In this document: one piece after another, positions 17,667 through 37,477 of the stretch
Position numbering within the stretch: position 1 is the stretch's first letter
Layout: every line of letters starts with the position of its first letter
DNA from: Rhodococcus oxybenzonivorans
GTDB taxonomy: Bacteria > Actinomycetota > Actinomycetes > Mycobacteriales > Mycobacteriaceae
Reading direction: 5' to 3'
DNA: 64,000 nt
Assembly: GCF_003130705.1 (NCBI RefSeq)
Contig: NZ_CP021354.1
Location: 1,240,001-1,304,000 of the forward strand
The notes under the pieces: generated by a model
Told to the model about the DNA's origin: nothing
Seen by the model: only the letters and a program-made list of their open reading frames with translations
Database searches by the model: none
Position numbers and translations under genes: made by a program

Positions 17667-19335
17667 CCCGCTCCTGCGAGCTCTCCCGCTCCTCGAACTC
17701 GAGCCGAAGAGAGTGCTGCGGGCCGTCGCCGCCGGCGTAGCCACCCTGGGAAGCGCGTTGGCACTCGCCGCGCTCTCGGCGTGGCTGATCACCAGAGCCT
17801 GGCAGATGCCGCCCGTCCTCGATCTGAGCGTCGCTGTGGTGGCGGTCCGTGCCCTCGGAATCTCCCGCGGCGTGTTCCGGTACCTCGAGCGGCTGGCCAC
17901 CCACGACACCGCCCTCAGGGGAACGACGTCCGCCCGGAGTCGGCTGTACCAGCGGCTGGCCGCCGGCAATCCCGCAGCTGCGGCAGGATTGCGCCGCGGC
18001 GACCTCCTCGCTCGCACCGGGGCCGACGTGGACACTCTCGGCGATGTCGTCGTGCGTGCGCTGGTGCCGATCGCAGTCGCGGTCGTCCTCTCGGTGGCCG
18101 CCGTGGGCATCCTCGCTGTCATCTCGCCCGCCGCGGCGCTGATCCTGGCGGTCTCGCTCGCCGTGTCCGGGATTGCGGCGCCGGTGCTGTCCGCCCGCGC
18201 CGCGCTGATGTCCGAAAAAGACAGCGCAGCAGCGCGGGCACGCTTCAGCGAAGAGGCCGTCACGGCGCTCGATCACGTCGCTGAACTGACAGTGGCCGGT
18301 CGACTCGACCGCACCGTCGACGGTGCGATCGCTGCCGAGCGGGCCGCCGTCGCAGCGACCGACCGCGCCGCCGTGCCCGGCGCCTTCGCCGACGCCGCGA
18401 CCCCGCTCGCGGTCGGGGCCAGCGTGATCGGTGCACTGCTGATCGGCATGAACCTGTACTCGTCGGGGACGATGAGCCCGATGGCCCTGGGCATCCTCGT
18501 CCTCATGCCGCTGTCGGCGTTCGAGGCGACCAGCACCCTTCCCGCGGCCGCTGTCGCGCTGACCCGGGCCAGGATCGCGTCACGTCGTATCCTCGCGCTG
18601 TTCGATGCCGCCACCCCGGACCCACATCCCGGAGACCGGGAACTGGACGGTCCCGTGCACCTGCGAACGACCGGTCTCCGATGCGGATGGCCCGGTGGTA
18701 GGACAACAGCGCCGATCGACCTGGACCTTCCGCCCAGCGCCCGGGTCGCGATCGTGGGCGGCAGCGGCTCCGGCAAGACCACGGCGCTGATGACACTGGC
18801 CGGACTGCTACCTCCGGTGTCGGGGGCGATCGACGTCAACGGCGCCGCACCGGCCGACATCCGGCCCGACTCCCTGCGACGCCGGATCGGATTCTTCGCC
18901 GAAGACGCGCACCTTTTCGACACATCCGTCCTCGAGAATTTGCGCGTCGCACGCGGCGATCTACAGGAGCATGAGGCGCTCGACGTCCTGGAGTCCGTGG
19001 GGCTGAGGGAGTGGGTTTCGCAGTTGCCGCAGGGCCTGGCCACCACGCTCTCCGGCGGCGCCCGGGCGGTGTCGGGCGGGCAGCGTCGCAGGCTGCTGCT
19101 CGCCCGCGCCCTCCTCTCACCCGCCGACGTGCTGTTGCTCGACGAACCCACCGAACATCTCGACACGGACAGCGGAGCGCAGCTGCTGCGGGATCTCCTC
19201 GCGCGGGACGCAAAGCTGGTGTCGGGGGAGCGCTCCGTCGTCGTGGTCACTCATCAGCTGCCGGAGGATACCAGCGCTGACGTGGTGATTCGCGTCGAGA
19301 ACGCGGAGAGCGAAAATACGTTGCCGACGATGTGA
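17656..19335 (+). CDS. cydC: Thiol reductant ABC exporter, CydC subunit
   Basis: The partner of CydD, about 559 residues with a membrane domain and an ATPase domain. Walker A is GGSGSGKTTAL, the Q-loop region is GFFAEDAHLFD, the signature part is SGGQRRRLLLARALLSP, and Walker B is VLLLDEPTEHLD. The ATG at 17656 is preferred over the GTG at 17650 because GAGG at 17643-17646 is then 9 bases away. It overlaps the cydD 3' end by 11 bases. Last gene of cydABDC. Confidence 0.92.
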   Translation: MSNDPLLRALPLLELEPKRVLRAVAAGVATLGSALALAALSAWLITRAWQMPPVLDLSVAVVAVRALGISRGVFRYLERLATHDTALRGTTSARSRLYQRLAAGNPAAAAGLRRGDLLARTGADVDTLGDVVVRALVPIAVAVVLSVAAVGILAVISPAAALILAVSLAVSGIAAPVLSARAALMSEKDSAAARARFSEEAVTALDHVAELTVAGRLDRTVDGAIAAERAAVAATDRAAVPGAFADAATPLAVGASVIGALLIGMNLYSSGTMSPMALGILVLMPLSAFEATSTLPAAAVALTRARIASRRILALFDAATPDPHPGDRELDGPVHLRTTGLRCGWPGGRTTAPIDLDLPPSARVAIVGGSGSGKTTALMTLAGLLPPVSGAIDVNGAAPADIRPDSLRRRIGFFAEDAHLFDTSVLENLRVARGDLQEHEALDVLESVGLREWVSQLPQGLATTLSGGARAVSGGQRRRLLLARALLSPADVLLLDEPTEHLDTDSGAQLLRDLLARDAKLVSGERSVVVVTHQLPEDTSADVVIRVENAESENTLPTM

Positions 19336-19381
19336 GGGCGGCGTACTTTCTTGAGTACACGAGGAAGGAGGTGGTCTGAAG

Positions 19382-19420
19382 TTGAATGACAAACGGACAC
19401 GTGAGGTGGCTGCCAGCTAG
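19382..19420 (+). CDS. 12-codon ORF with strong Shine-Dalgarno
   Basis: The TTG start at 19382 lies 8 bases after AGGAGGTG (19366-19373), one of the strongest ribosome sites in the window. It encodes LNDKRTREVAAS then TAG. The last codons (GAG GTG GCT GCC) are also the left arm of a 10-bp stem with 19472-19481, so translation would change the RNA fold. An overlapping alternative (ATG at 19386, 15 codons, MTNGHVRWLPASRYR) has a poorer 12-base spacing. I do not recognise a function; a leader peptide is the natural reading. Confidence 0.55.
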   Translation: MNDKRTREVAAS

Positions 19421-19548
19421 CCGCTACCGCTGACGGAATTCACTGACCGCGCGAGCGGCGAGCGAATCCCAGGCAGCTACCCGGCCCCCGAGCCCCCGGT
19501 CTGGTCCAGATCGGGACCGGTGCACCCGCACCGGAAGGCTCGGGGGCC
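19405..19548 (+). ncRNA. Candidate structured RNA with nested stems
   Basis: Two structural blocks follow each other. Block 1: GGTGGCTGCC (19405-19414) pairs with GGCAGCTACC (19472-19481), one G-U, enclosing CCGCT/AGCGG (19421-19425 with 19454-19458). Block 2: a perfect 12-bp outer stem GGCCCCCGAGCC (19483-19494) with GGCTCGGGGGCC (19537-19548) encloses two hairpins, 19495-19515 (9 bp, 3-base loop) and 19517-19534 (CCGGTGC-accc-GCACCGG), giving a three-way junction. No T-run follows, so it is not a simple terminator. Family unknown to me. Confidence 0.55.
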
Positions 19549-19563
19549 GTTCTGCGCTCCGCA

Positions 19564-19609
19564 CCTGTGAGTACTTATTAACAATCCATTGTTAATAAGT
19601 ACTCACAGG
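19564..19609. repeat. Perfect 21-bp inverted repeat
   Basis: The arms at 19564-19584 and 19589-19609 are exact complements with the loop tcca; the core is GTGAGTACTTATTAACAA. It is AT-rich against a GC-rich background. A related, imperfect copy lies on the other side of the AbiEi-like gene (20727-20766). A DnaA-box-like TTATCCACA follows at 19613-19621. An operator, a terminator or a cassette boundary are all possible. Confidence 0.75.
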
Positions 19610-19703
19610 CGGTTATCCACAACCTCACATCCATCCACAGGCCAATTCCGATCGTCGGCTTTCGCCCATAGGTCTGTCGGTGACGCTGCGCACCGTTCGG
19701 ACC

Positions 19704-21353
19704 ATGACCACCGCGACATCCGACTACACACCCGAATTCCAGCGCGTTCTCGACTACCAGCACGGGATCATCACCACCAAGCAATTGCACTACTTGGGTC
19801 TTTCGACCCGCCAGATCCAGCATCGCGTCGAGTCGGGGCAGTGGCCGGCCGTGCTCCACGGCGTGTATGCGGTGACCAACGGACCACTCGACCGCTCCAT
19901 GACTCTGTGGGCGGCCCTGTTGTTCGGTGGTCCGAGGGCTGTCCTCAGCCATCGCACGGCGGCCGAGGAGTGGGCGCTCGAATCCGTCGACGCCACTGCG
20001 CCCGTCCACGTGACCGTGCCCTACGGACTGTCGGCGGAGTCGCAGGCGCCTACGTACCGGCAGGCCGGTAGCCGGTCCGAACGGCTCGTCCCGAGAGAGG
20101 GCGATCTACTCCATCCCGGTGTCGTCGTGCATCGCTCCCGAGCACACACCCACATCACCGTGCCGACAGTGCCACCGCGGACATCGCGAGCGGACACCAT
20201 CCTGGACCTCGCCGTTTCCGAACCATCGGCGGCAACTGGAGCCCGGGTAGTGGTGGCAGCAGCGACGACTGGCGGTGTTCCGGTGCACGATCTGCTCCGA
20301 CGGATCGAGGAGCGGCCACCGCGCAGATATCGTCGTGCTTTGACCGCAGCACTCGTGTCGGTGTCGGATGGCGGTGTTCAATCGCTCCTCGAGCACCGTT
20401 ACGCCGCAGACGTGGAGAAGGCGCACGGGCTACCGGCAGCGCGTCGACAGTCACCCATTCTCGTCGACGACCGCACCCTGTACGAAGACGTGGACTACTC
20501 GGACACCGGGATTCCGCTGATCGTGAGACTCGATGGATTGCGGTACCACTCGTCACGCGTGGTTGCTCTGCGCGACCGGCGCCGCGGCAACGCAGCGGAA
20601 ATCGCAGGAAAACCGACGCTGGTGTACGGCTGGGAAGAAGTGACTCGGCGCCCGTGCGTCGTCGCCGCGGAGGTTCGAACGGTGCTCGGACGCGGTGGCT
20701 GGAGCGCCCCAACCCGTGCCCGCACTGTGCGCACTTATCAACCGCGGAGTGTTAACAAGTACTCACGGGTGGGGTCAGCCGATGTAGCGGGTAAGACGCG
20801 CCGAAAGGCGGGGAAGAAGTTCTCCGTCGGCGATGATGCGTTCCTCGACGTACGCCAGGTCGCCGCCTTCGACGATGCCGTACAGACGCTTGGCGCCGCC
20901 GACGAGGGCACCGGAAGTGCTGCGGATGACGACATCGGTGGCGAGTTCCCACGACGACTGCGTGAGGGCGCGACCGTAGAACAATTCGACGATGCCGGAG
21001 CTGTGGGTGAGGAGCAGCTCGACGACTTCTTCGTTGGTGCTGCCGGGTATGCCGTCGCCGCTGATGCGCCAGAAACCGGATTCGCGGAGATCGGGACGGA
21101 CGTATTCACCTTCGCTGTCGAGAACCCAGGACTGGGACTCCCAGCTCAGGTAGTTGCCGCCGTTGTGAGAGACGATGATTTGCTGCCCGAATCGGTAGTC
21201 ACCGGTTTCGGGGTCGTGGCCTTCGCCTTCACCGCGCCACACACCCACGAGGGGCAGTACCGCCAGGAGTTCGTTGTTGAGGTCCGGCCCGAGCCGCAGG
21301 TTCGCGGTGTCCTCGGGCAGCGGAAGGTCCGGAAGCAGGGGAATGTTGCGTGA
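19704..21353 (+). CDS. AbiEi-like / DUF559-type protein with extended 3' end
   Basis: The first ~340 residues look like the actinobacterial 'type IV toxin-antitoxin AbiEi family antitoxin domain' proteins: an N-terminal winged-helix part ([20 protein letters not shown], then [11 protein letters not shown]) and a C-terminal DUF559-like part ([20 protein letters not shown]). No AbiEii toxin is adjacent. The usual size is near 300-340 residues, which would end around 20720, but no stop occurs and the frame stays open to 21353, running 579 bases antisense through the nitrobindin gene. The distal sequence is low-complexity and probably meaningless. The ATG at 19704 is favoured; a GTG at 19680 is possible. 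Confidence 0.6.
20727..20766. repeat. Imperfect copy of the 19564-19609 palindrome
   Basis: GTGCGCACTTATCAAC (20727-20742) faces GTTAACAAGTACTCAC (20751-20766); 12 of 16 positions pair, more with G-U. The right arm nearly repeats the right arm of the upstream palindrome (ends AAGTACTCAC). Together the two copies bracket the AbiEi-like domain. Confidence 0.6.
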
Positions 21354-36520: not shown

Positions 36521-37477
36521 CTACGAAGCCTTCTGCTCACGCTTCTTGGCCTCGCGAGCAAGCATGCGGTCGCGCTGCTCCTCGAACTTGGTGGCCTGGC
36601 CCTCGAGGTTCTCGAGGAAGGCGCCGAGCGACTCGCGGATTTCTTCGCCACGGGCCGTGAAGTCGGACCGCTCGAAGATGTTCCACTTGCGCAGGACCGG
36701 CATGACGACCTCTTCGAGGTGCTGCCGGAGATCGTAGATGCCGTGCTTGGCCATGAGCACGCCGTTGCGGCGGAAGTTCGGCATTCCCGCGCCCGGCATC
36801 TGGAAGTTCTGGACGATCATGTTGATGGCCTCGAGTGCCTGGTCGGGCGCGAGATCGAGGGCTGCACCGCACATGTTGCGGTAGAAGATCATGTGCAGGT
36901 TCTCGTCGGCCGCGATGCGCTGCAGCATCTTGTCGGCGACGGGGTCTTTGCAGGCTTTACCGGTGTTGCGGTGGCTCACCCGGGTGGCCAGCTCCTGGAA
37001 GGTGACATATGCCACCGAGTGGAGGAAGCCGGCATCGACGTCGGCGGGGGAGGCGAAGCCGTTCGTCATGTGCTCCATGCGGAAGCGCTCGAGCTGGACG
37101 GGGTCGACGGCGCGGGTCACGACAAGGTAGTCACGCATCACGATGCCGTGACGGTTCTCCTCGGCGGTCCAGCGGCCGACCCACGTGCCCCACGCGCCGT
37201 CCTGGGAGAAGTTTTCGGCGATCTCACGGTGATACGAGGGAAGGTTGTCCTCGGTGAGCAGGTTGGTGATCATGGCGGCCTTGGCGACCTCGTCGAGCTG
37301 TGACTGCTCCGGATCCCAGTCGATTCCGCCCATCGCAGCGAAGTTGCGGCCTTCGTCCCACGGAACGTAGTCGTGTGGATGCCATTCCTTGGCCATGGAG
37401 ATGTGGCGGTTGACGTTCTCTTCTGCGACCGGCAGCAGCTCCTGCAGCAGCTCGAGTTGGGTCAGATCCCTCGCCAT
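36521..37477 (-). CDS. desA: Acyl-ACP desaturase (DesA type, di-iron)
   Basis: A 318-residue ferritin-like acyl-[acyl-carrier-protein] desaturase, introducing double bonds in long acyl chains (in mycobacteria for mycolate precursors). Iron-ligand motifs EENRHG near residue 110 and DENLH near residue 200 are present. The ATG at 37477 has GGAGG upstream, so the longer open frame is not used. The neighbour order (LCP, dus, desA1) matches mycobacteria. Confidence 0.93.
   Translation of the reverse strand: MARDLTQLELLQELLPVAEENVNRHISMAKEWHPHDYVPWDEGRNFAAMGGIDWDPEQSQLDEVAKAAMITNLLTEDNLPSYHREIAENFSQDGAWGTWVGRWTAEENRHGIVMRDYLVVTRAVDPVQLERFRMEHMTNGFASPADVDAGFLHSVAYVTFQELATRVSHRNTGKACKDPVADKMLQRIAADENLHMIFYRNMCGAALDLAPDQALEAINMIVQNFQMPGAGMPNFRRNGVLMAKHGIYDLRQHLEEVVMPVLRKWNIFERSDFTARGEEIRESLGAFLENLEGQATKFEEQRDRMLAREAKKREQKAS

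Follow-up and report, generated by a model that had tools for sequence, protein, structure and literature searches.

The RNA analyzed here is a homologue of Ms_IGR-5 (RF02471), which Rfam classes as a small RNA (sRNA) of Actinobacteria. The S. lividans homologue is SLIV_16488 and was validated by RNA-seq (PMC8079986), the S. avermitilis homologue is an sRNA transcription unit (PMC8780764), and M. smegmatis IGR-5 overlaps ncMSMEG15794c (PMC10454040). A further paper reports ribosome footprints on the M. abscessus and M. smegmatis homologues, with the authors’ caution that footprints can also come from non-coding RNPs (PMC4974804). In a collection of papers searched by name, we found no description of an open reading frame (ORF) or a function of Ms_IGR-5.

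We analyzed a 64,000-nucleotide stretch of DNA (‘the window’), with positions counted from its first letter. A sequence-only reading of this locus had assigned it to no named family. An Rfam covariance-model scan instead matched 19357–19555 (+) to RF02471 with 150.7 bits, against a gathering score of 45, and the alignment spanned model positions 1–184 of 184, the 3′ hairpin included. The locus is an ordinary member of this known family. The 5′ end of the sRNA probably lies near ACAC at 19357, as taken from the start of the Rfam model. A minus-strand match at 19476–19642 scored 28.8 bits, below the cut-off, and was attributed to the self-complementary 3′ hairpin and the adjoining palindrome. 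A tmRNA was also rejected: ARAGORN found none at 19200–19700, and the Rfam scan gave no tmRNA match. Elsewhere in the window, 37092–37159 matched the ASdes TB sRNA (RF01781) with 78.1 bits against a cut-off of 40. The features of the Ms_IGR-5 homologue are as follows.

19357..19555, + strand: whole sRNA, Ms_IGR-5 homologue (RF02471, 150.7 bits)
19362..19378, + strand: SD1, AGGAAGGAGGTGGTCTG, 17 contiguous pairs with the genome’s own 16S 3′ end
19382..19420, + strand: 12-codon ORF, TTG to TAG, fM-N-D-K-R-T-R-E-V-A-A-S-stop
19395..19398, + strand: GGAC, ORF side of the pseudoknot
19403..19408, + strand: SD2, GAGGTG (codons E-V), internal and SD-like, at a fixed distance to the stop
19405..19414, + strand: P2 outer stem, left arm, within the ORF, 10 bp
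19464..19471, + strand: GAATCCCA, frequently conserved, immediately inside P2 on its 3′ side
19472..19481, + strand: P2 outer stem, right arm, 10 bp
19482..19494, + strand: left arm of the 3′ hairpin P4, at the terminator position, perfect 13 bp
19496..19514, + strand: P4a hairpin, loop GGTCC at 19503–19507, of which GTCC at 19504–19507 is the loop side of the pseudoknot
19517..19534, + strand: P4b hairpin, 7 bp
19537..19549, + strand: P4 3′ hairpin, right arm, perfect 13 bp

The predicted fold of 19360–19560 had an energy of −109.6 kcal/mol (z = −5.22), and none of 200 shuffled sequences was equally stable. The sequence-only reading had correctly described the 12-codon ORF behind AGGAAGGAGGTGGTCTG and the 10-bp stem that its last codons form with 19472–19481. 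The perfect stem enclosing two hairpins is likewise present, at a length of 13 bp and not the 12 bp given there. Neither the pseudoknot nor the internal SD, with its constant distance to the stop, was noticed in that reading. At the position of GAATCCCA, AATCC, AATACC or AATTCC occurred, group by group, in 115 of 159, 17 of 18, 5 of 14, 2 of 8 and 0 of 1 elements. Directly behind the sRNA lies a perfect 22-bp palindrome with a 2-nt centre, CCTGTGAGTACTTATTAACAAT and its complement (19564–19609). Among 283 loci, exact copies of its inner part were seen only in this genome’s loci (L001, L002, L222), and a half-site with two mismatches lies at 20748–20763 (−). The palindrome could be an operator of the downstream AbiEi-like gene, or a mobile repeat.

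The Rfam model scored over its cut-off in 37 of 41 own and related genomes and in 35 of 396 genomes of the window’s phylum (70 of 396 at E ≤ 0.001), and had no match in 14 control genomes. A covariance model of the core that we built ourselves (R1) matched, at E ≤ 0.001, 139 of the same 396 genomes, 15 of 199 genomes in the phylum of a Bryobacterales MAG, 34 of 98 in that of a Zixibacteria MAG and 16 of 40 in that of a Sumerlaeota MAG; the group names are those of seed record titles and not per-genome taxonomy. In the phylum of a Deltaproteobacteria MAG, R1 matched 1 of 198 genomes, and because only one genome matched we do not claim that phylum, although the element is present in the seed record itself. 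Relatives of the RNA appear to occur in more than one phylum, the matching genomes being assigned to the groups of the Zixibacteria, Sumerlaeota and Acidobacteria MAGs. The Rfam model passed its cut-off in 7 of 26 scanned loci from these seed-MAG groups (L134 and L155 of one 6; L248, L250, L255, L259 and L261 of another 20), and it gave 50–63 bits, over the cut-off, in six of eight scanned Zixibacteria-group loci. L155 looks actinobacterial by sequence, so the Acidobacteriota title of its record could be an error. Almost all matching genomes held one copy over the cut-off; G263, in the window’s phylum, had two R1 matches and was the only such genome among the 139. A plasmid- or phage-borne element was considered and rejected, as phage records yielded none and the one plasmid record was a 2.66-Mb Nocardia farcinica replicon. 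The sRNA copy in that record (L284; NZ_LN868939.1, ‘plasmid 2’) has no annotation over it, the whole record carrying two features.

For the counts that follow, an element finder matched 265 of 278 loci, which gave 200 distinct sequences; a DNA pattern scan supplied loci from among the matches listed. The 13 unmatched loci were element loci L066, L075, L204, L206, L207, L208, L210, L211, L213, L214 and L277 and two 16S loci, the latter identified by count. Dropped before counting were L112, L133, L135 and L152 (chance matches, by eye) and L002 (a minus-strand artefact). The ‘Actino’ group of 159 includes L158–L196, whose titles were unseen, and L155.

In 198 of the 200 distinct elements a stop codon begins exactly 15 nt downstream from the first base of GAGGTG (TAG 163, TGA 20, TAA 15), and the stop was in register in 95 of the 97 elements found by covariance models and not by the DNA pattern. 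Upstream in-frame stops were absent from all 200 elements at every offset from −3 to −21, and 3 of 195 elements had one at −24, mostly at or before the ORF start. Out-of-frame stops occurred in 88/200 elements at −20, 58/200 at −16 and 140/200 at −1, those at −1 being the TGA inside CGTGAGG. A frame open from a canonical start (accepted 4–13 nt after the SD core) to the fixed stop position was found in 185 of 200 elements, and in none for the other two frames. ORF lengths among the 185 were 11 codons in 16, 12 codons in 137, 13 codons in 16 and 14 codons in 16; length varied by whole codons upstream of GAGGTG, and the distance from GAGGTG to the stop stayed constant in 198/200.

Fifteen elements lacked an open canonical frame. 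L212 has an ATG just outside the accepted range; the other elements without a canonical start carry, by eye, ATC, ATT, ACG or CTG where the start would be. Near-cognate codons stand behind a strong SD in L064, L067, L069, L070, L074, L076, L120, L137, L141, L149, L155, L166 and L189, which would fit a tolerance of, or even a preference for, weak initiation. The two elements without the stop at its place were L205, which stops further on, and L276, with no stop in the length read. In L205 and L206, from the phylum of the Bryobacterales seed, the GAGGTG tail is doubled in one ORF (..SEVNYRTREVVAT-stop and ..SEVSYRTREVAAT-stop).

The finder demands GGAGGTG and GAGGTG, so the conservation of both was judged from 69 model-aligned loci alone, the covariance model behind which was itself built from GGAGGTG/GAGGTG-bearing sequences. 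In these loci GAGGTG was exact in 68, the stop was in place in 66 and a canonical start was present in 63. The left arm of P2 overlaps GAGGTG, so this motif’s conservation could stem from P2 alone. Peptide residues between the start and E-V were mostly variable, also within the window’s genus. We concluded that translation of the ORF, as the sequence-only reading had proposed, is strongly supported by conservation of the frame and stop. An ORF frame kept intact in distant groups suggests that translation is part of how the RNA works. That reading had named a lack of ORF or stem conservation in relatives as grounds for dropping its proposal; we found both conserved.

SD1 pairs with the genome’s own 16S 3′ end (four identical copies) over 17 contiguous positions, 13 Watson-Crick and 4 G-U. 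This was the longest 16S-tail pairing on both strands of the 64 kb, where the runner-up had 12 Watson-Crick pairs in one run versus 13 for SD1. The distance from the GGAGG of SD1 to the start codon (n = 185) was 11 nt in 73 elements and 10 nt in 59, with 10 nt in the window itself. From the GAGG of SD2 to the stop, the distance was 11 nt in 198/200. Because 11 nt is also the modal distance from SD1 to the start, the 16S tail should be able to re-anneal at SD2. TAG, which only release factor 1 reads, predominates among the elements (163/200), whereas of 20 long ORFs with GC3 bias in the window 14 end in TGA and 6 in TAG. ACAC stood directly 5′ of SD1 in 17/18 Zixibacteria-group and 115/159 mainly actinobacterial elements. 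In L250, L254, L258 and some other Zixibacteria-group loci, a stretch ACCTC, complementary to GAGGT, follows the stop and might pair with SD1 or SD2 as an alternative.

We sought covariation in the stems. P2 was examined in an alignment (A1) of 55 rows hand-picked for diversity from 82 references with a P2 pairing score of at least 18, a score reached by 114 of 150 rows, of which 82 remained after repeats and long inner regions were removed. P2 was paired in 95.8% of cells, a value that leans upward since the rows were preselected by P2 score. The alignment held 27 double-change cells versus a shuffled mean of 7.6 (0/500 shuffles), and slid partners paired in 26 to 65% of cells. In an unfiltered comparison of 197 of the 200 elements, each element’s own left arm scored 15.45 versus 13.80 (sd 0.13) for the arms of others; the highest of 30 permutations was 14.01, and shuffled downstream sequence gave 12.15. 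The P2 outer stem is thus supported by covariation. The sequence-only reading had held that ribosome occupancy would break this stem, and the coupling of ORF and stem that this would need is indeed present in the alignments.

In a second interaction, the GGAC of the ORF pairs with GUCC in the apical loop of P4a, forming a predicted pseudoknot. Rows for its analysis were the distinct ones with a P2 score of at least 15 (130 of 150), 99 entering the permutation test and 100 the alignment test, with loops taken from minimum-energy folds. Own pairing scored 5.16 versus a permutation mean of 4.63 (sd 0.08; 0/500). As controls, four further 10-nt stretches of this region were set against the same loops, and three showed no excess. 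The fourth, just upstream of GGAC, scored 3.49 versus 3.32, with 0/200 permutations reaching it, so relatedness accounts for part of such an excess; its excess was smaller than that of the pseudoknot. In separate alignments, the 6-bp helix was paired in 84.1% of cells versus 77.1% (sd 0.96; 0/500), with 67 double-change cells versus 31.4 (sd 4.85; 0/500). Slid versions paired in 23 to 45% of cells, and the 4-bp core paired in 97.7%. The double changes lay mostly at the two flanking pairs. The core had four: L080 (GTGAC/GTCAC), L136 and L148 (GGAT/ATCC), and L119, the last in an otherwise failing row. The core failed or was unplaceable in 10 of 100 distinct rows, including L026 of the window’s own genus group. 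Outside the counted set, L057 and L059 (P2 score below 15) offered CGAC or CGATC with GTCG, a pairing chosen as the best available one. These results point to a new pseudoknot between the ORF and the P4a loop that covaries in actinobacterial-type elements.

Neither P2 nor the pseudoknot is present in the Rfam consensus structure. The first stem of that structure, which joins the SD with the left arm of P2, was paired in 93.3% of cells with no double change, equal to shuffles. We also considered a hairpin sequestering the SD, in which a GGUCC near SD1 pairs with the ORF’s GGAC. It was paired in 87.6% of cells with 1 double-change cell versus 3.9 in shuffles, and its own pairing, 4.64 against a permutation mean of 4.50, was at least as high as in 494 of 500 permutations. 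Such a hairpin may form; it is not well supported.

The sequence-only reading took the hairpin to be more than a terminator because no T-run follows. There is indeed no terminator-like T-run after P4 in the window, but the wider claim is partly contradicted by relatives, as a stable hairpin directly before a T-run of at least 4 takes the position of P4 in 15/18 Zixibacteria-group loci. T-runs of at least 5 were found in 9/153 mainly actinobacterial, 5/14 Sumerlaeota-group, 1/7 Acidobacteria-group and 1/1 ‘Delta’ elements. By eye, Zixibacteria-group loci have TATAAT-like boxes ahead of the TACAC that adjoins SD1; scanning the window for consensus promoters gave no match. Both flanking genes are as that reading described them: upstream a gene for an ABC-transporter protein, to which it gave the name cydC (CydC), and downstream an AbiEi_4-like gene that scored 22.5 bits, below the Pfam cut-off of 25. 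The ABC-transporter gene lies upstream in the window’s genus, and neighbours differ between lineages. L033 (mycobacteria-like, an inferred label) is preceded by an aminotransferase class IV gene and followed by a THAP4-like gene, L045 (Streptomyces-like, also inferred) has PNPOx and citrate synthase gene neighbours, and a neighbour gene in far relatives is presumably gyrA-like, judging from its sequence. With composition-based gene calls at 74 loci, the nearest downstream gene ran opposite to the sRNA in 56 and with it in 16, and 2 loci had none. Taking simply the longest ORF, a cruder rule that lets in spurious ORFs, gave 98 same-strand, 92 opposite-strand and 10 without a gene among 200 elements. 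The sRNA looks free-standing, which agrees with one of the two roles that the sequence-only reading had allowed; the other, a leader, is disfavoured by the neighbours’ orientation.

Our main reading, to which we give a probability of roughly 60%, is that Ms_IGR-5 is a free-standing sRNA gated by translation of its own ORF. A ribosome would load on SD1 and open the compact pseudoknotted fold. The ORF strand is shared by the ribosome, P2 and the pseudoknot, so translation and the compact fold would be mutually exclusive. The ribosome would then stop at a codon 11 nt downstream of the SD2 core, and re-annealing at SD2 may keep it on the RNA during or after termination. The RNA would switch between two states, open while a ribosome is held and otherwise closed with the pseudoknot formed, with ribosome supply or termination speed setting the share of each. 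This state might in turn control the stability of the RNA, its action in trans on other RNAs, or ribosome titration.

A bolder proposal, which we regard as rather unlikely, makes ribosome parking the central trick, that is, a cross-phylum device capturing post-termination ribosomes. The stop is spaced from the second SD as a start codon would be; a freed 30S subunit would re-anneal to SD2 and, with no start codon to use, stay parked. Parking would block the pseudoknotted fold, and the RNA could thereby report on or tune initiation, termination or recycling capacity.

Among the competing explanations, the one that survives best, although we consider it unlikely, is a 30S or ribosome sink, in which the long SD titrates ribosomes as a global translation brake and the ORF and internal SD serve capture. 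A sink would be in keeping with the 17 nt that pair with the 16S tail, a match unequalled elsewhere in the window, with the placing of the SD2 core before the stop as SD1 is placed before the start, and with a mostly variable peptide. It would nevertheless require very high abundance, and a pure sink needs neither a conserved P2 nor a pseudoknot.

A functional micropeptide of 11–14 residues, acting in trans or arresting the ribosome, seems improbable to us. An E-V-(A/T)-x-x-stop tail is found again in every group, and the peptides of the Zixibacteria group resemble each other, as such a peptide would predict, but most residues vary both between and within groups. The E-V codons are GAG GTG in 68 of the 69 model-aligned elements despite synonymous codons, which points to a constraint at the level of RNA, and RNA pairing accounts for residues in that region.

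We doubt even more that Ms_IGR-5 is an ordinary trans-acting sRNA with an incidental ORF. Rfam files it as an sRNA, and the M. smegmatis RNA was reportedly discovered with the use of heterologous Hfq; an intact frame with a stop fixed in 198/200 elements would nonetheless be unexpected of an incidental ORF. A leader-peptide attenuator of the downstream gene is very improbable, for although SD, short ORF, alternative pairing and terminator-like hairpin come in attenuator-like order, that gene lies mostly on the opposite strand by composition-based calls (about evenly on either strand by the cruder rule) and the neighbours change between lineages.

On comparative grounds, the Ms_IGR-5 family appears to be ORF-dependent, pseudoknotted and cross-phylum. 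Listed so far among actinobacterial sRNAs, and with no function described in the papers we searched, it appears to have kept a mini-ORF in frame with a fixed stop in more than one phylum, and its structure is corrected by the addition of P2 and the pseudoknot. This suggests a way in which the ribosome itself may control a free-standing RNA, and ribosome parking, if true, would make it a new kind of ribosome-responsive RNA.

Comparison with known systems places these features in context. The SD, ORF region and 3′ hairpin of the window’s RNA are all in the RF02471 consensus; that structure has no P2 or pseudoknot, and its first stem uses part of the left arm of P2. The title of the family names Actinobacteria only, whereas its own model also passes in Zixibacteria-group loci. 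Leader-peptide attenuators of the trp, ermC and whiB7 types share with Ms_IGR-5 a strong SD, a short ORF and a fold that a translating ribosome would rearrange, but Ms_IGR-5 has no consistent same-strand gene downstream. The programmed frameshift site of RF2 (prfB) has an internal SD near a stop codon, and in Ms_IGR-5 an SD-like sequence similarly lies inside the ORF, a short and constant number of nucleotides ahead of the stop. In contrast to prfB, its spacing is longer, no frameshift product is apparent, the stop is mostly UAG and not UGA, and the site does not lie in a release-factor gene. SgrS/SgrT is a dual-function sRNA with a translated ORF (PMC11133741). Ms_IGR-5 is likewise a free-standing sRNA carrying a conserved ORF (stop in 198/200 elements, open frame in 185/200); unlike in SgrS/SgrT, the ORF is far shorter, its peptide is largely unconserved, and the fold incorporates the ORF strand.
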